A stretch of 64,000 nucleotides of DNA from Halobacteriovorax sp. (GTDB taxonomy: Bacteria; Bdellovibrionota; Bacteriovoracia; Bacteriovoracales; Bacteriovoracaceae). The notes below the pieces were generated by a model, which was not told the origin of the DNA, did no database searches, and saw only the letters and a list, made by a program, of their open reading frames with translations. Positions 13,349 to 30,685 of this stretch are shown here, in pieces. The stretch covers positions 806,001 to 870,000 of the forward strand of contig PBIO01000014.1 of the NCBI GenBank assembly GCA_002720865.1, written 5' to 3'. Both the position numbers and the translations under genes were made by a program. The first letter of the stretch is position 1. Each line of letters begins with the position of its first letter.

Positions 13349-14155
13349 TTATTTTTTCCAGATTTTGCTTACCCATTCTGGATGATCAATAAATGGGTTT
13401 CTATTTTTCTGAAAAGTGTAACCGCGGTTATTTCGGTTTCTTTCGTGCTCGCTTACCGGGTCTTGCTTATGCCACTTAAGAAGCATTCTAACAAAATGGG
13501 CCTTGTAAACTTGATCGCGGCTACCGTCTAACCACTCGTGATGAAAAGATTGAATTCGGTCTTCGTATCTTGTCGCAAAATAAAAAAGAGATCTGGCGAT
13601 ATCACCTTTGAATTCATCGATTGGTTCAAAAACTGTATTCCCAACATTTTCAAAAGTATTTTTACCGACTTTAGATCCATTTCTAGATGTCCACTTAGCA
13701 ACCTTACCAACCTCACCAAAAGAAAGATGTCCTCTTCTATTATTTACATAACCATCGGAAGGATAGACATGAAAAAAGTCTGATCTCATTGGCTTAGCTT
13801 TATTAAATGAAGACTGAGGAAAGATATGTTCTCTATTGTAGCAATCAGCTTCTTTCTTATAGTTCCCACATCTTTTTTTAGGAGAGTTAAAAATATAAGG
13901 ATCAGCACCATTTGGATTTTCAGAATACATATCAACGATTGAGCCATCACCATCATAAGTCGTGTCGCGATCAGTTTCTTTATAAGCATTAAATAGGGCG
14001 CCGTAGCTTTGTGATTTATGTGTTCTTGAGATTATTGTTTTGAGGGCGGATTTAAGTTGATAGCCAGTAAGGCCTTCTACATTTCTGTAGTAATTTTTTT
14101 CTGCAATTGCTGAATTCGAAAATAAAACAGCAAAAATAATTAGAAACTTATTCAC
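13349..14155 (-). CDS. Exported endonuclease I family nuclease
   Basis: 268 residues with a signal peptide (FLIIFAVLFSNSAIA, cleaved near 18). The core shows the endonuclease I (EndA/NucM) motif: NREHIFPQSSF, then DFFHVYPSDGYVNNRRGH. In this family the His of REH/CEH-type motifs is the general base and the nearby Asn binds magnesium. It should cut DNA nonspecifically in the periplasm or outside the cell, fitting the digestion of prey or environmental DNA. The end RNRNPFIDHPEWV is also shared with the second family member at 20914. Start GTG 14155 follows GAGGGG. Confidence 0.88.
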   Translation of the reverse strand: MNKFLIIFAVLFSNSAIAEKNYYRNVEGLTGYQLKSALKTIISRTHKSQSYGALFNAYKETDRDTTYDGDGSIVDMYSENPNGADPYIFNSPKKRCGNYKKEADCYNREHIFPQSSFNKAKPMRSDFFHVYPSDGYVNNRRGHLSFGEVGKVAKWTSRNGSKVGKNTFENVGNTVFEPIDEFKGDIARSLFYFATRYEDRIQSFHHEWLDGSRDQVYKAHFVRMLLKWHKQDPVSEHERNRNNRGYTFQKNRNPFIDHPEWVSKIWKK

Positions 14156-20913: not shown

Positions 20914-21753
20914 TTAGAAATTCTTAATTCTATCTACAAGGTTTGGATAATCAATAAAAGGATTTCTGTTCCTTTGAATCTCAAAGATAGTCTGGTTTCT
21001 ATCTCTTTCTTCAGCATCAACAGGATCAAGCTCATGCCATTGTCTAAGGTAAGCTTCTTGCCTTTCAGAGATCTTAATTTGGTAACGAATTGAAAAGTAG
21101 AATAGTGCTCTAGCTACATTTCCTTTATGTTCTGTTGGTGGCTCAAAGTAGTCGTAATTCCCTTTAGGTGTTCCTGAATAAGAAGCAGCACAATCATTTT
21201 CAAGAGGATCACCTTGAACATTAGCGAACTCATTATTTCCGCGGATACTATTTGCACGGCTATCAGTAGGAAAGAGGTGATGAAGATCTGATTTTTGTAG
21301 ACCTTTTGGGAACCTTCCTGAAAATTTTGACTGAGGCCAAGTATGCTCACAGTTGATTTGGCTGTGATTAGGAATAGTATTGGGACCAACTTGTGTTTGA
21401 GCATTAGTGATTTTTTTTCTGCAGTAGACGTCTTTGATATAATACCCTTCTGCATCTTCTTCTAAGTGAAGCTTTCCAAAAAGAACTTTTCTAGCTCCTC
21501 TATATCCAAGAGATCTTTGCTCGTAGCAATTTCCCTTAGGACCTTCAGCGCAAGAGTTAACAACAACGTCGTCACCTTTTTTTACTCTAATATGTTTCTT
21601 ATCAAGAACATTAAAAAGAAGGACCTTTAGTTCTTCACCAGAAATATTTGAGTTATTGAATTTTTGCTTAGTAGCGGTCGGGTAGTAATGGGAAACTGCA
21701 ATTGCTTCCTGTGCCAATAGTAAGAATACGCTTACGACTAGTAATAACTTCAA
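20914..21753 (-). CDS. Exported endonuclease I family nuclease (second copy)
   Basis: 279 residues. Signal peptide LLLVVSVFLLLAQEAIA (cleaved near 19). The core matches E. coli EndA better than the first copy: NCEHTWPQSKF, then SDLHHLFPTDSRANSIRGN, with general-base His and metal-binding Asn, and the tail RNRNPFIDYP. Extra cysteines near the N-terminal half (AEGPKGNCYE, VYCRKK, INCEH) could form the disulfides known in EndA. It should degrade double-stranded DNA outside the cytoplasm. Start TTG 21753 follows AGAGAGG. Confidence 0.92.
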   Translation of the reverse strand: MKLLLVVSVFLLLAQEAIAVSHYYPTATKQKFNNSNISGEELKVLLFNVLDKKHIRVKKGDDVVVNSCAEGPKGNCYEQRSLGYRGARKVLFGKLHLEEDAEGYYIKDVYCRKKITNAQTQVGPNTIPNHSQINCEHTWPQSKFSGRFPKGLQKSDLHHLFPTDSRANSIRGNNEFANVQGDPLENDCAASYSGTPKGNYDYFEPPTEHKGNVARALFYFSIRYQIKISERQEAYLRQWHELDPVDAEERDRNQTIFEIQRNRNPFIDYPNLVDRIKNF

Positions 21754-25185: not shown

Positions 25186-26070
25186 ATGAAGCTGTTCGTT
25201 TATTTTTTATTACTTACAAGTCTTGTGACAAATCTGTATGCCACGGAACCAGAAGATGATTTTGCGGAAATTGAATTAGACTCATTTCATCTTAAAGAAG
25301 TTGTAAATGATTCTGAAGATTCAACTTTTGTTCCAGTTGAAATAAAGATGGAAAAGCCAAATGATGATCAAAGATCTCGTGGAGTTGTGAACAGGCTTAT
25401 CATCTCTTATGGACAAATTTCCGCTGAAAACTTTGAGACTACTTTTGAATCTAATAATGAGGATCGTGGTCTTAATGGAAATTTCGATATCAATAGATTT
25501 AATGAGATTATGAAAGAGGAGCTAAAACTTCGCGCCAGTCATATCATTACAATTGAATACTATATTACCGATGCTCTTAGTATTGAGCTAGGTGATACCT
25601 ATAGAGAACAAGGAATGGATAGAACTCAAGTTGGAGAGTATTCCCCTAGCTCTGGTGGCGGAAACCTATTAGGTGGTGGAGGAAGTACCTCGACACCATA
25701 TTATATGGATCATGAGGACCGTACTCATGATATTACCTTGGGACTTGGTTACACTGTAAAGGTTATGGATAATAACTTTGGGAAAATAGAAATTACATTT
25801 AAAGGTAATGCTGGTTTAGTACATATGGATACGAGAACAGAAGTAGACTATGGAACTCCAGAAAACTATGTTTACGAGTATGAAGGAGTTGCTGGTTATT
25901 CTCTAGGTGCTGGAGTTAGGGCGAGATATAGCTATAAAAACTTTTTTATCCAAGGTGGAGTAGATTATAAAAACTATGTTATCGCGCCTATGGAGCATTC
26001 TGATGGTAGCACTAGTCAGATCAACCAAAGGGGTTTTATGGCCTACTTTGGAATTGGGATTAGATTCTAA
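25186..26070 (+). CDS. Outer-membrane beta-barrel protein
   Basis: 294 residues. Signal peptide FVYFLLLTSLVTNLYA (cleaved near 19), an acidic N-terminal plug-like segment, then alternating hydrophobic strands from about residue 60 to the end. It ends in FMAYFGIGIRF, the aromatic-terminal strand used for BAM-dependent insertion. A Gly/Ser-rich loop lies near 150-165. I cannot assign a substrate. AGAGAGGAAATGC precedes ATG 25186, and a strong terminator follows. Confidence 0.75.
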   Translation: MKLFVYFLLLTSLVTNLYATEPEDDFAEIELDSFHLKEVVNDSEDSTFVPVEIKMEKPNDDQRSRGVVNRLIISYGQISAENFETTFESNNEDRGLNGNFDINRFNEIMKEELKLRASHIITIEYYITDALSIELGDTYREQGMDRTQVGEYSPSSGGGNLLGGGGSTSTPYYMDHEDRTHDITLGLGYTVKVMDNNFGKIEITFKGNAGLVHMDTRTEVDYGTPENYVYEYEGVAGYSLGAGVRARYSYKNFFIQGGVDYKNYVIAPMEHSDGSTSQINQRGFMAYFGIGIRF

Positions 26071-26075
26071 AAAAC

Positions 26076-26104
26076 AAAAGGCACCTTTTAGGTGCCTTTT
26101 TTAT
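26076..26104 (+). terminator. Strong bidirectional Rho-independent terminator
   Basis: AAAAGGCACCT (26076-26086), loop TTT, AGGTGCCTTTT (26090-26100), then more T on the plus strand. A-rich flanks make it work on the minus strand too, where it overlaps the stop of the 40-residue gene. Confidence 0.9.
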
Positions 26105-26223
26105 TGTGTAAATGCGTCTAACACGACCACAAATAAAATCATAATGGCAAAAGCAAACGGGGTTAAGAGTAATAATGTATTGATTAACCCCGCTTCAATT
26201 AAAGTAAGTACTGGGGTATTCAT
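26101..26223 (-). CDS. 40-residue membrane peptide
   Basis: ATG 26223 is preceded by AAAAGGAGGATAGA, one of the best ribosome-binding sites in the window. The product is a single hydrophobic helix (LINTLLLLTPFAFAIMILFVVVL) with an acidic residue before and after it. The gene begins 12 bases after the stop of bL25/Ctc and ends in the shared terminator, so it is the last gene of that operon. Size and shape resemble small regulatory or subunit peptides of membrane complexes. Family unknown. Confidence 0.72.
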   Translation of the reverse strand: MNTPVLTLIEAGLINTLLLLTPFAFAIMILFVVVLDAFTQ

Positions 26224-26235
26224 TCTATCCTCCTT

Positions 26236-26838
26236 TTAAGAAGGGATGGAGATAGGCATGGGTTCTAAAATGGGCTTCCAAAACTCAACCATCTCTTCAT
26301 CCGTTTTAATTGGTGGCCTACAAACGGCAATAACCGTATTGTCGTTTTCTTCAATCTCGATATCCTCTTCAACATCTAAATCATCAACTGTTAAGGCTTC
26401 ACCGATTTTTAAGTTCTTAACATTCTCTTCAATTCTTTCTGGAATATCCTCGACCATCCCATAAACATTTAAAGAATCTTTTAGAACAACTAAGACACCA
26501 CCATTTTTTACACCTTTTGGAGTACCTTCTAGTTTTACGGGAATCTCAACTTTGTTTTCCCTGTCTTTAGGTAGTTCAACGAGAGAGAAATGAAGTGGTT
26601 CCTTTGATATTGGATCTTTGTGAATATCAATAAACTTTACAAACCTAGGACCTAAAACAGTGTCCACCTTATAAAGCTCTCCTGGCTCTTTTAAGGCCTT
26701 CTTAAGCTCTTTCTTAGGCATCCTAATGGGAGTGCTATCAATTGTTTTTCCATATATTGATCCAGGAACAAAACCGTTCTCTCTAAGTTCCCATACTTTT
26801 CTATTTTTATTTCTCTTCTTAATATTTAAAAAATTCAT
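26236..26838 (-). CDS. Ribosomal protein bL25 / general stress protein Ctc family
   Basis: 200 residues, the long (Ctc) form. The N-terminal domain has WELRENGFVPGSIYGK, matching the 5S rRNA-binding domain of bL25; the C-terminal beta domain has VPVKLEGTPKGVKNGG-type residues (IPVKLEGTPKGVKNGGVL) and KIGEALTVDDL. In the usual arrangement this gene sits with pth and prs; here it sits in an operon of apparent stress genes, so it may be a second copy. AAAAGGATTAAAA precedes ATG 26838. Confidence 0.85.
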   Translation of the reverse strand: MNFLNIKKRNKNRKVWELRENGFVPGSIYGKTIDSTPIRMPKKELKKALKEPGELYKVDTVLGPRFVKFIDIHKDPISKEPLHFSLVELPKDRENKVEIPVKLEGTPKGVKNGGVLVVLKDSLNVYGMVEDIPERIEENVKNLKIGEALTVDDLDVEEDIEIEENDNTVIAVCRPPIKTDEEMVEFWKPILEPMPISIPS

Positions 26839-26891
26839 TTTTAATCCTTTTGTTCATTCGTTAGCAGTTTAGTTTTAGTCCGTTTGAAATT

Positions 26892-27530
26892 CTAGCTGGC
26901 TAAAACCATTCCAAGCTTCAGTGCTTTTTGAGTACTGAATGGAAGTTTCGTCGACCTATCAATCAAGGCTCCTGTAAAATAGGCCTTCTCTAGGTCTGTC
27001 TCCCTAAGGTCAGCACCTCTCATATCACTTCGCCTTAAGTTGGCTTTGAAGAAGGTACACTGTCTCATATCAGCTCCTCTAAGGTTTGCTTCTCTCATCT
27101 TTGTTAAAAAGAATGAGCAACCTCTAGCATTTGCGTCTTCAAAGTTAGACCTATCCATGTCAGATCTCATAAAGCTCACATTCATAAGAAATGCCTTTTT
27201 GAAGTTAGAACTCCAAATCCTAAGGTTTCTCATTTTCGTATTAACGATTTCTGAGGCCACAAATTTAGCTCTTTTTAGGTTGGCAAACTTAAACCAGGTT
27301 TTGTCAATATGACTTCCTGAAAAGTCAGCCTCTCTTAAGTCGGCTCTTCCTAGGTTTGCCCCTACAATATCGGAGCCCGAAAAATTGGCACCTTGAGCAT
27401 TTGCAGCATTCATATTAACGTTCTCTATTTTGGAGTTAGAAAAGTCTTTGCCCTCTAAGTCCTTTAATCTGAGATCGTTTATATCTTGTAGTTTCTCATC
27501 TAACATTTTATCAAATTCTTTTATTGCCAT
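26892..27530 (-). CDS. Pentapeptide-repeat protein
   Basis: 212 residues. From about 20 to 195 the sequence follows A(D/N)LxX-type pentads with central Leu/Phe/Met: GANLGRADLREADFSGS, then REANLRGADMRQCTFFKANL and RGADLRETDLEKAYF. Such repeats fold as a right-handed quadrilateral beta-helix; some (Qnr, MfpA) mimic DNA and protect gyrase, but most have no known role. It is cytosolic and lacks a signal. The start overlaps the HPF-like stop by ten bases; ACGGAG precedes it. Confidence 0.88.
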   Translation of the reverse strand: MAIKEFDKMLDEKLQDINDLRLKDLEGKDFSNSKIENVNMNAANAQGANFSGSDIVGANLGRADLREADFSGSHIDKTWFKFANLKRAKFVASEIVNTKMRNLRIWSSNFKKAFLMNVSFMRSDMDRSNFEDANARGCSFFLTKMREANLRGADMRQCTFFKANLRRSDMRGADLRETDLEKAYFTGALIDRSTKLPFSTQKALKLGMVLAS

Positions 27531-28000
27531 ATCATACTCCGTTTTAAGTTATTGCGAGCCTTTGCTGTTTTCCATTTCTTTCTTTCGCCTACAACGGCTT
27601 CTTCTAAAACTTCTAAAGAATTGGATACTGCTCGAGATAAATTCTCTGATGCCTTTCTCGCATATAAGACCCCTGTTCCTGGTCTTTTTAAGGCAACTCC
27701 ACAACTAATAATTTCATCATTTTCTGCTCTCTTTGAGTTTTCCTTGTCGAGCCAAATTTCGACTTTCCATTTGCCACTATTAGAAAACTTTCCGAGTGCC
27801 GATTTAATAAAATACTTAATCGTGCTTACGGTTTTTTGATAACTGGTATCAATATTACTATGTACTTCTAGCTCAGGTGTTTTTGCTTCAGAGCTTGGTG
27901 CAGAAGTAGGGTTACGTTTTTCAACAAACCTCTTATAAACCTCTGAATCCTCAAAAGATTCCCAGTTATCAATAACTTGTTCATTCTTTTTATTGCTCAT
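27521..28000 (-). CDS. HPF/RaiA-like protein (possible ribosome-associated factor)
   Basis: 159 residues from ATG 28000, behind ACAGGAGGCATT; a longer frame lacks support. Residues 1-60 look disordered. The C-terminal ~95 residues resemble the hibernation-promoting factor fold: KWKVEIWLDKEN, ISCGVALKRPG, GVLYARKASENLSRAVSNSL and EVLEEAVVGERKKWK, compare HPF strands and the final helix carrying DMYAAID-type residues. The order and spacing fit, but identity is low and the first strand is unclear. It is the first gene of the operon that leads to the pentapeptide protein, bL25/Ctc and the membrane peptide. Confidence 0.5.
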   Translation of the reverse strand: MSNKKNEQVIDNWESFEDSEVYKRFVEKRNPTSAPSSEAKTPELEVHSNIDTSYQKTVSTIKYFIKSALGKFSNSGKWKVEIWLDKENSKRAENDEIISCGVALKRPGTGVLYARKASENLSRAVSNSLEVLEEAVVGERKKWKTAKARNNLKRSMIWQ

Positions 28001-28109
28001 AATGCCTCCTGTTGCATTGTCTAATACTATTATCGCACTATTTGCTGTTAATCTAAAATACATATAATATTAGTTCTATATAATATAAAATCTATATAGG
28101 AGCTAAGCC

Positions 28110-28982
28110 TTGTATAAGTTCAACTTTAATCATTTACACTACTTCATGACCATTGCTAGAGAGGGATCGATCGTAAAAGCTTCCAAAAAGCTTCATATTA
28201 CTCAGCCCGCACTTAGCCATCAGTTAAAGCTTTTTGAAGAGGACTTAGGCGAAAAGCTTTTTGATAGAAAAGGAAAACGCTTAGCTATTAATGATCATGG
28301 AAGAAAAGTTCTAGAATATGGAGATAGGATTTTTAGGCAATCAGATGAATTGCAACAGGTCATTAAAACAGGCGAGATAAGCACTTCTAAGATTGTTAAA
28401 GTGGGAGTTATTTCTTGGCTCCCGGCTGAACATGTCTACGAATTCATAAGACCGCTTCTGTATATGTCGCAAATTAAAGTGCAAATTATACAAAAAGATT
28501 TAGCTTCACTTCTAAAAGATGTTCAAACAGATGCCCTCGATTTAATCCTTTGTGATTCTCCTTATTCAGGAAGATCAAAAAAATTAATGGGTAAAAAAAT
28601 TCATTCTGAACCAATTATTTGCTTGGCTTCCTCAAATGAAAAACTAAAGGGTAAGTTTCCTGCAAATATTAACTCTAAGAAAGCTATTTCATATTCAGAG
28701 GCATCTGAAATTAGAGACCATGTTGATGGATTTATCCTTGATAATAATCTAAGCCTAAATATTGTAGGGGAGCTCTCTGATGCATCCCTGGCGCTTTATG
28801 CTATAGAAAAAGGGGACGTCATTGGCTTTCTGCCCCTAACTAAAGCAAAAGAGGCTTTGAGAGGAAATAGAGTTAAAAAGTTAGGAGAGATTTCTAAGGC
28901 CAGATTTTCACTATGGGCGATATATAAAAAAAATCAGGGGCGCTCTAGCATTATTACAAACTTGATAAAGAGGAATGATTAA
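28110..28982 (+). CDS. LysR-type transcriptional regulator (NhaR-like)
   Basis: 290 residues. N-terminal winged helix: FNHLHYFMTIAREGSIVKAS, then LHITQPALSHQLKLFEEDLG and LFDRKGK, typical of LysR and close to NhaR. The C-terminal part is the periplasmic-binding-like effector domain. It is divergent from the HPF-like operon with 109 bases between the starts, which would be its natural target. Within that gap CTATAT and ATATAG flank an AT-rich centre close to the start. TTG 28110 follows TATAGGAGC. Confidence 0.88.
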   Translation: MYKFNFNHLHYFMTIAREGSIVKASKKLHITQPALSHQLKLFEEDLGEKLFDRKGKRLAINDHGRKVLEYGDRIFRQSDELQQVIKTGEISTSKIVKVGVISWLPAEHVYEFIRPLLYMSQIKVQIIQKDLASLLKDVQTDALDLILCDSPYSGRSKKLMGKKIHSEPIICLASSNEKLKGKFPANINSKKAISYSEASEIRDHVDGFILDNNLSLNIVGELSDASLALYAIEKGDVIGFLPLTKAKEALRGNRVKKLGEISKARFSLWAIYKKNQGRSSIITNLIKRND

Positions 28983-29942
28983 TTATTTTAGTAAATCATC
29001 TGGTATATCGGATGCTTCAATTTGAAGGTCAACGTCCTCATATCTTTTTGGAAGCTGAGAGATTTTAGACTTTATTAGCTCTTGAAGTTTTTGGATAGAA
29101 ATAAGTTGTTCATCGGACTTTTTCCATATCGCATATATTTTGATTCGTAGGGGGTCACTAAACTTAAAAGTTTTTATACCCTCATAATTATCAAGTGGGT
29201 TTTCAGGCATGAACATAACACACCGACCTCGCTCGCATAAATCTCTTAAAAACTGTGGATGATCACTATAAATTATCTCTCTTGGAATAGAAGCCTTCTC
29301 TCTTAAGTACCCAGCTACCGCCTTGTTCAATCTTTTATCTCTATTCGTGGCCGCAAAAGGAATATTTATAAGTAGATCTTTTTTATCTTTAAACTTTCCA
29401 TAGAGTTCTTCACTACAAGCGAAAAGAACTTCGAATGATCCAATCTCACTATAGTTTAAGCTTTTTCTCTTTGGTTCTCGAACAGAAATGCCCCAGTCTA
29501 TATTTCCCTTAAGTAAGTTATCTATAAGGAGCTCGTGCACATCTTGTCTGGAGGTATTCACAGTTCCAAATTGAGCATATAGGTCCCAAAACTGTGATGT
29601 AAAGCTACAGGCAAGTTCTGTAGAAATTGTATCCTCTATTCCTACGTTTACGGGGTATCCGCCGATATCATCGCTAGAATAGTGGTCTAATAGCTTGGAG
29701 CCAGTTTCAAAAATTGGTTTAACTTGATCGAGGAGCTTAAAGCCTTCGGAGTTTAACTCAAGGCCTTTTGAGCTTCTTATAAAGAATTTCTTTTGAAACT
29801 TTGCTTCGAGTTTTTTTAGGTGCTCACTTAAAGTAGAGGGGGCCAGTTTTAATTTAGAAGCTGCTTCCTTTAGGGAGCTAGACCTTGCTACTTCATAGAA
29901 GTAGTAGAGCTGGTTCCAATTAATTTCTTTTAGTTGTTCCAA
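28983..29942 (-). CDS. LysR-type transcriptional regulator
   Basis: 319 residues. Helix-turn-helix: INWNQLYYFYEVARSSSLKE, then LKLAPSTLSEHLKKLEAKF. The C-terminal effector-binding domain follows. It resembles the LysR protein encoded tail to tail with it (adjacent stops), so the two may have arisen by duplication. Start TTG 29942 is preceded by AAAGGGATATTTC, and that ribosome-binding site lies in the second arm of a perfect 13-bp hairpin. Confidence 0.87.
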   Translation of the reverse strand: MEQLKEINWNQLYYFYEVARSSSLKEAASKLKLAPSTLSEHLKKLEAKFQKKFFIRSSKGLELNSEGFKLLDQVKPIFETGSKLLDHYSSDDIGGYPVNVGIEDTISTELACSFTSQFWDLYAQFGTVNTSRQDVHELLIDNLLKGNIDWGISVREPKRKSLNYSEIGSFEVLFACSEELYGKFKDKKDLLINIPFAATNRDKRLNKAVAGYLREKASIPREIIYSDHPQFLRDLCERGRCVMFMPENPLDNYEGIKTFKFSDPLRIKIYAIWKKSDEQLISIQKLQELIKSKISQLPKRYEDVDLQIEASDIPDDLLK

Positions 29943-30202: not shown

Positions 30203-30685
30203 TTAAGTTGTTATTCCTATATTTTCTAAAAGATGCTCTGAGTGGTCCTGTTTTTGATCTAGGATATAACTAGCTTCAATAACAAGTTTCTCTTTGAGCT
30301 CATTAAAAAGTTTTCTTTCACTGACCGAGATTTTTTTTTCTTTTTTAAGAATGTTTAAGTCGTGAAAAACTTCTAGCATGGGCTTCAAGCTTCCTTTTAA
30401 GAATTTATTTTTAAAATATCTGTATCTGCTACCCTCAATTTCTCCAACATCGATCATCTTTGAGGATTTAAGATCTCTTAGGTATCTCATCAATGTTCTT
30501 TTAGTAGGTAGTTTCCTAAGTGAAATGTCTTCATTGCAAGGAAGGTAATGTATGAGGTCTTTATCTTCTTCGATTACCTTGTGAAATTTCTCTGTCTTTC
30601 CATAAGCACTTACAACTTCTTTACCTACATATTCTCCAGCGCTGATTCCAACTCCAGCTACCAGGTCTCCTCTTGAAAAATCCAT
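30203..30685 (-). CDS. Small cytosolic protein with winged-helix-like segment
   Basis: 160 residues. Residues ~58-92 (LPTKRTLMRYLRDLKSSKMI, then GSRYRYFKNKF) fit a helix-turn-helix and wing. The flanking sequence is helical and charged. AAAGGGGTAAAG precedes ATG 30685. With the 59-residue gene downstream it forms a two-gene operon; a regulator plus small effector, or a toxin-antitoxin-like pair, is conceivable but not shown. Confidence 0.55.
   Translation of the reverse strand: MDFSRGDLVAGVGISAGEYVGKEVVSAYGKTEKFHKVIEEDKDLIHYLPCNEDISLRKLPTKRTLMRYLRDLKSSKMIDVGEIEGSRYRYFKNKFLKGSLKPMLEVFHDLNILKKEKKISVSERKLFNELKEKLVIEASYILDQKQDHSEHLLENIGITT

Follow-up and report, generated by a model that had tools for sequence, protein, structure and literature searches.

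Organization of the locus

Here, we describe a four-gene operon encoding an HPF-like protein, a pentapeptide-repeat protein, a paralog of the ribosomal protein bL25/Ctc and a small membrane peptide, which lies next to a divergently oriented LysR-type regulator gene in the genome of Halobacteriovorax sp., of the family Bacteriovoracaceae and the phylum Bdellovibrionota (GenBank assembly GCA_002720865.1). The window analyzed is a stretch of 64,000 nucleotides, positions 806,001 to 870,000 of contig PBIO01000014.1 (G000:C14:806001-870000), and genes are numbered in window coordinates throughout. A first-pass annotation of this DNA, made from the sequence alone, had proposed that the run might be a translation-stress or hibernation module under LysR control. 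Conservation was gauged against L011, a metagenome-assembled genome of Halobacteriovorax sp. that is the closest named relative as judged by the bL25 protein (89% on bL25). The features of the locus are as follows, with lengths in amino acids (aa).

26076..26100, minus strand: bidirectional intrinsic terminator at the operon end, 11-bp stem, -15.9 kcal/mol, z -4.2
26101..26223, minus strand: 40-aa single-helix membrane peptide, hydropathy 2.95, dN/dS 0.06 against L011
26236..26838, minus strand: bL25/Ctc paralog P0003, 200 aa, with L25 (PF01386) and TL5_C (PF14693) domains, in a clade of its own
26892..27530, minus strand: pentapeptide-repeat protein P0002, 212 aa, pI 9.6, PF00805, beta-helix in the AlphaFold2 model
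27521..28000, minus strand: HPF-like protein P0001, 159 aa, with a disordered tail (residues 1-42), a predicted HPF fold (residues 43-158) and a basic tail at the end
28029..28057, minus strand: probable operon promoter, TTTAGA-17-GATAAT with an extended -10 (TG), nearly invariant against L011
28059..28082, no strand: probable LysR operator, TACATATAATATTAGTTCTATATA, directly upstream of the -35, carrying the shared motif
28110..28982, plus strand: LysR-type regulator LysR1, PF00126 and PF03466, with orthologs in 13 genomes of the family
28983..29942, minus strand: second LysR-type regulator LysR2, an optional associate, convergent with LysR1

The four operon genes follow one another on the minus strand with an overlap of 10 bases and then gaps of 53 and 12 bases, exactly as first annotated, and this spacing suggests a single transcript. 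The good ribosome-binding sites ascribed to all four are likewise there, a Shine-Dalgarno-like site being readable for each (AGGAGG, GGAG, AAGGA and AAGGAGG), and the one terminator said to end the run, read 26100-26076, also serves the convergent gene at 25186-26070. Purifying selection against L011 was found for all six genes checked (the four operon genes, LysR1 and LysR2), so that none of them is a chance open reading frame. For the 40-aa peptide, pS is 0.73 and pN is 0.16, with the ribosome-binding site AAAAGGAGGA retained, which marks it as a genuine gene that selection maintains; for the HPF-like gene, dN/dS is 0.10.

Between 28100 and 27921, which covers the promoter and the start of the HPF-like gene, DNA identity to L011 is mostly 87-93%, and pS in the HPF-like gene (0.42) is about half that in its neighbors (0.73-0.84). 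High expression, RNA-level constraint and recombination are candidate causes of this low synonymous change.

The HPF-like protein

The HPF fold expected of the first protein was found over residues 43-158: when the P0001 model was compared with the PDB using Foldseek, the top 20 matches were all HPF, pY, RaiA or RafH proteins, and the target TM-score reached 0.85 (8uu7, TM-score 0.84 and root-mean-square deviation (rmsd) 2.0; 4hei, TM-score 0.85). A profile built from P0001 and eight aligned homologs retrieved the Acinetobacter baumannii HPF (PDB 7m4z) at an e-value of 8e-4 and, weakly, chloroplast pY/PSRP1, and three of the eight homologs match PF02482 themselves (best e-value, 5e-5). P0001 is thus assigned to the HPF/RaiA family by its modeled fold only and is accordingly called HPF-like. 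Two other identifications of the protein were discarded, namely as Cmr5, for which the match was under the cut-off (e-value of 0.028) and is contradicted by the fold, and as an LptE/LptD-like protein, for which the Foldseek matches had rmsd over 7 and are attributed to chance.

Elsewhere in the window genome, at G000:C14:1142000-1143200 (L033 4000-5193), a canonical HPF gene lies between genes that were named by eye as CBS-domain-like and universal-stress-like. The archaeal protein HibA consists of CBS domains fused to an HPF domain (PMC13324472), and by analogy this bacterial pair of CBS and HPF genes may be related to the HibA pairing. Another arrangement was seen in genome G052 (L028 9173-11827), where two HPF-like genes lie within 3 kb around a LysR2 ortholog and a gene for a patatin-like protein; the second of them barely exceeds the PF02482 cut-off, and the island in which they lie also contains Dps, DUF2383 and formate/nitrite-transporter (FNT) genes.

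A separate clade of bL25 paralogs

P0003 contains both domains of bL25, scoring 48.5 bits against L25p (cut-off 23.6) and 73 bits against TL5_C (cut-off 27), and exceeds the cut-off of TIGR00731 (103 against 73.1). Together with the HPF fold of P0001, this upholds the first-pass view that two of the products resemble ribosome-linked stress proteins. In a phylogenetic tree of 51 bL25 proteins of the family, 11 of the 12 copies from this module group together in a single clade (91/81 support) that is distinct from the usual copies and has as its sister a G022 copy adjoining an Hsp20-like gene. The twelfth, from G074, is a long branch elsewhere in the tree. In that genome (L030 4405-5733), the module bL25 seems to be split, with a TL5_C-bearing protein whose N-domain is poorly recognizable, followed by a second pentapeptide gene and then by a separate 105-aa protein with the L25p domain.

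The module copy is the sole bL25 found in G019, G020, G025 and G053 and is therefore expected to work as a true bL25; no bL25 was detectable with the L25p or TL5_C model in 66 of the 129 genomes of the order. P0003 retains R, Y and H in the columns aligned with Staphylococcus aureus bL25, and the Asp of the HxD motif is replaced by Ser, as it is in most other bL25 copies of the family; these columns correspond to putative 5S rRNA-binding residues. A search of plasmids recovered no relative of the paralog.

The pentapeptide protein and the membrane peptide

P0002 matches PF00805 (e-value of 2.6e-28), and its AlphaFold2 model is a right-handed beta-helix (mean pLDDT 92.5) of the HetL/Qnr/MfpA fold class. 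Its relatives have in common, with little variation, the C-terminal signature T-x-LPFS-x3-A-x3-GM. In three genomes that belong to other families within the phylum, namely G201, G203 and G204, pentapeptide proteins with the same signature additionally possess an N-terminal membrane segment. The 40-aa membrane peptide was found in the genus only: in other genera, no peptide resembling it was detected after the genes for bL25 or the pentapeptide protein. We suggest a split membrane anchor, with the separate peptide of the window corresponding to the segment that is fused to the pentapeptide protein in those three genomes.

The divergent regulator and its probable operator

As first annotated, a divergent LysR gene faces the operon. 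The closest named model to LysR1 is NhaR (NF008284), which is matched over the whole length at 114 bits, under the cut-off of 219, and no nhaA or osmC was recognized when the genes neighboring LysR1 were read. LysR2 is 95% identical in L011; it also adjoins the HPF-like gene in G052 and lies near the LysR1 locus in G025. No relative of LysR1 was detected in the viral contigs searched. Next to both LysR genes, at 30203-30685, lies a gene for a short protein with the C-terminal domain of CarD (PF21095, e-value of 6e-10) that is conserved in L011; RNA polymerase and rRNA promoters are the targets of CarD-type factors.

Nine of the ten LysR1-divergent promoters compared share TACATATAnTATTAnnTATATATA, whatever the target gene, with a log-likelihood ratio of 101.5, where dinucleotide shuffles gave 58.6 (sd 2.5), which backs the earlier proposal of LysR control. 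The window site at 28059-28082 differs from the shared motif by one mismatch and is the best match in the window genome, in which only one other site was found (C11:7366, with 3 mismatches, beside unrelated genes), so that the scan shows no wider regulon. A search constrained to palindromes was also tried and abandoned, being no better than the shuffles up to width 17 and modestly better at 19-21, whereas the unconstrained search performed far better. For activators of the LysR family, a site directly upstream of the -35 is expected. The position of the operator fits an activating LysR protein, and activation appears more plausible than repression.

Gene neighborhoods in the family and phylum

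The first-pass annotation had raised the conservation of the four-gene order as a question to be settled by a neighborhood survey. In seven genomes, the HPF-like and bL25-paralog genes are direct neighbors or belong to the same run: the order HPF-pentapeptide-bL25-peptide occurs in the window genome and G037, HPF-pentapeptide-bL25 in G019 and G074, HPF-Dps-bL25-BON in G073, HPF-bL25-BON in G021 and HPF-bL25 in G053. The set thus recurs, with HPF-pentapeptide-bL25 in two more genera and HPF-(Dps-)bL25 with a divergent LysR gene in three more, whereas the exact four-gene order is confined to the genus of the window genome.

Orthologs of LysR1 (at least 39% identity) are present in 13 genomes of the family, and at 13 of 13 readable loci, a count that leaves out two further LysR1 copies running off contig ends, the regulator is associated with a stress gene, the divergent gene being HPF-like (5 loci), the bL25 paralog (4), Dps (2) or pentapeptide (2). 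Recurrent in the vicinity are genes for the DNA-protecting protein Dps and for BON, CsbD, DUF2383, FNT, PAS-kinase and response-regulator proteins. The association extends to other families of the phylum, in which LysR cousins with about 30% identity face Dps-pentapeptide-HPF in G203 and G204 (the G204 HPF passes the PF02482 cut-off), HPF-BON-pentapeptide in G201, and Dps alone in G269, G238 and G237. Two small proteins adjoining the LysR gene in G269 looked HPF-like by eye and were set aside, having no Pfam match. As controls, neither LysR1 nor an HPF-like gene was found within 1.5 kb of canonical bL25 genes (0 of about 29 loci), and more distant LysR relatives from the same family (L130, L132, L133, L139, L140 and L143) have no such neighbors.

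Interpretation

We consider it probable that the locus is a LysR-controlled stationary-phase and stress (dormancy) regulon of Bdellovibrionota that is centered on ribosome hibernation. Under a stress or starvation signal, LysR1 would bind the operator at 28059-28082 and activate the leftward promoter at 28057-28029. The HPF-type factor, as its fold suggests, would sit in the mRNA channel of the 30S subunit and park ribosomes. On the 50S subunit, the bL25 paralog would contact 5S rRNA at the central protuberance, supplementing the other bL25 in times of stress. The basic pentapeptide beta-helix and the one-helix membrane peptide may act as tethers for the parked ribosomes or accompany them; envelope protection is another possible role. 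The module proposed at first pass is largely supported by the HPF fold, the bL25 paralog and the LysR-linked co-localization. That the operon furnishes a "dormant ribosome" kit, in which stress ribosomes would carry an alternative bL25 and be parked by a dedicated HPF, while the pentapeptide protein, together with a 40-aa anchor, would keep them at the membrane, strikes us as improbable.

Several observations weigh against a hibernation regulon. P0001 misses the PF02482 cut-off and has no Pfam match of its own, and hhalign comparison with the canonical HPFs of its own genome plus other HPF-like proteins gave a probability of only 71%. The window genome encodes two canonical HPFs elsewhere, which makes P0001 a third HPF-type gene, and a second bL25 on contig C26 (30% identity to P0003), so that redundancy is possible on both counts. 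Homologs of P0001 are present in 9 of the 129 genomes of the order, as befits an optional part; the alignment of operator sites is AT-rich and overlaps promoter sequence in part; and Dps, sought in the window genome, gave no match, leaving the wider set incomplete here.

Among the alternatives, a general stress cassette, in which an NhaR-like LysR1 senses salt, pH or oxidative stress and controls unrelated protective proteins with no joint ribosome mechanism, is a real if minor possibility. It would accommodate the Dps, BON, CsbD, Hsp20 and FNT genes among the neighbors, the head gene that differs between loci, and the affinity of LysR1 to NhaR, which in Escherichia coli is a high-salt/high-pH regulator (PMC6307784). 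The pairing of HPF-like and bL25-paralog genes in seven genomes is, however, more specific than a loose set, and E. coli NhaR itself binds rrn promoters, eases ribosome-assembly defects and is tied to rRNA transcription (PMC10157491). This link to the ribosome is an analogy only, because LysR1 fails the NhaR cut-off.

It is doubtful that P0001 no longer binds ribosomes and has another function, such as binding a different RNA or a partner protein. The strong divergence of P0001, its extra 42-residue N-terminal tail and the two canonical HPFs would be consistent with such a change, but the whole fold is kept, the C-terminal tail is basic, and the gene is under purifying selection and shares its run with a ribosomal-protein paralog. 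That P0002 protects gyrase as a DNA mimic in the manner of Qnr and MfpA, and that the operon is chiefly a DNA- or drug-stress locus, is very unlikely, notwithstanding a beta-helix fold as in QnrB1, MfpA and AlbG, because P0002 is basic (charge +7.6), where DNA mimicry needs an acidic surface, and falls far under the cut-offs of the Qnr (46 against 240 bits) and MfpA (40 against 360 bits) models, and the operon partners are ribosomal.

Already known are HPF factors, the stress protein bL25/Ctc and the stationary-phase protein Dps; in the open-access literature, we found no account of these genes in combination, of the LysR protein that accompanies them or of HPF encoded together with a bL25 paralog. 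Hibernation factors have mostly been studied as single genes, whereas in this locus one LysR protein with a recognizable operator appears to be wired to a diverged HPF, to a ribosomal-protein paralog specific to stress and to two further proteins. The proposed regulon would allow the idea that ribosome composition varies with conditions to be put to the test and supplies a candidate for a new hibernation regulator, in a system spanning a phylum that includes predatory bacteria, which must survive for long periods without prey. Elsewhere in the window (13349-14155 and 20914-21753), two genes looked by eye as if they encode secreted nucleases of the endonuclease I type, as might suit a predatory bacterium.

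Comparison with known systems

Compared with HPF/RaiA proteins (S30AE, PF02482), P0001 has an additional disordered N-terminal tail of 42 residues and lacks the C-terminal dimerization domain. P0003 resembles bL25/Ctc of the TL5 type in its two domains and in the retained R, Y and H residues; it differs in that it is a second copy, belongs to a stress operon and falls in its own clade. LysR1 resembles E. coli NhaR as the closest named LysR model and departs from it in score and targets. The 40-aa peptide can be likened, by analogy alone, to E. coli ElaB and YohP, which are described as stress-linked inner-membrane proteins with a single transmembrane segment, YohP being similarly tiny (PMC6389858, PMC12719787, PMC7549839).
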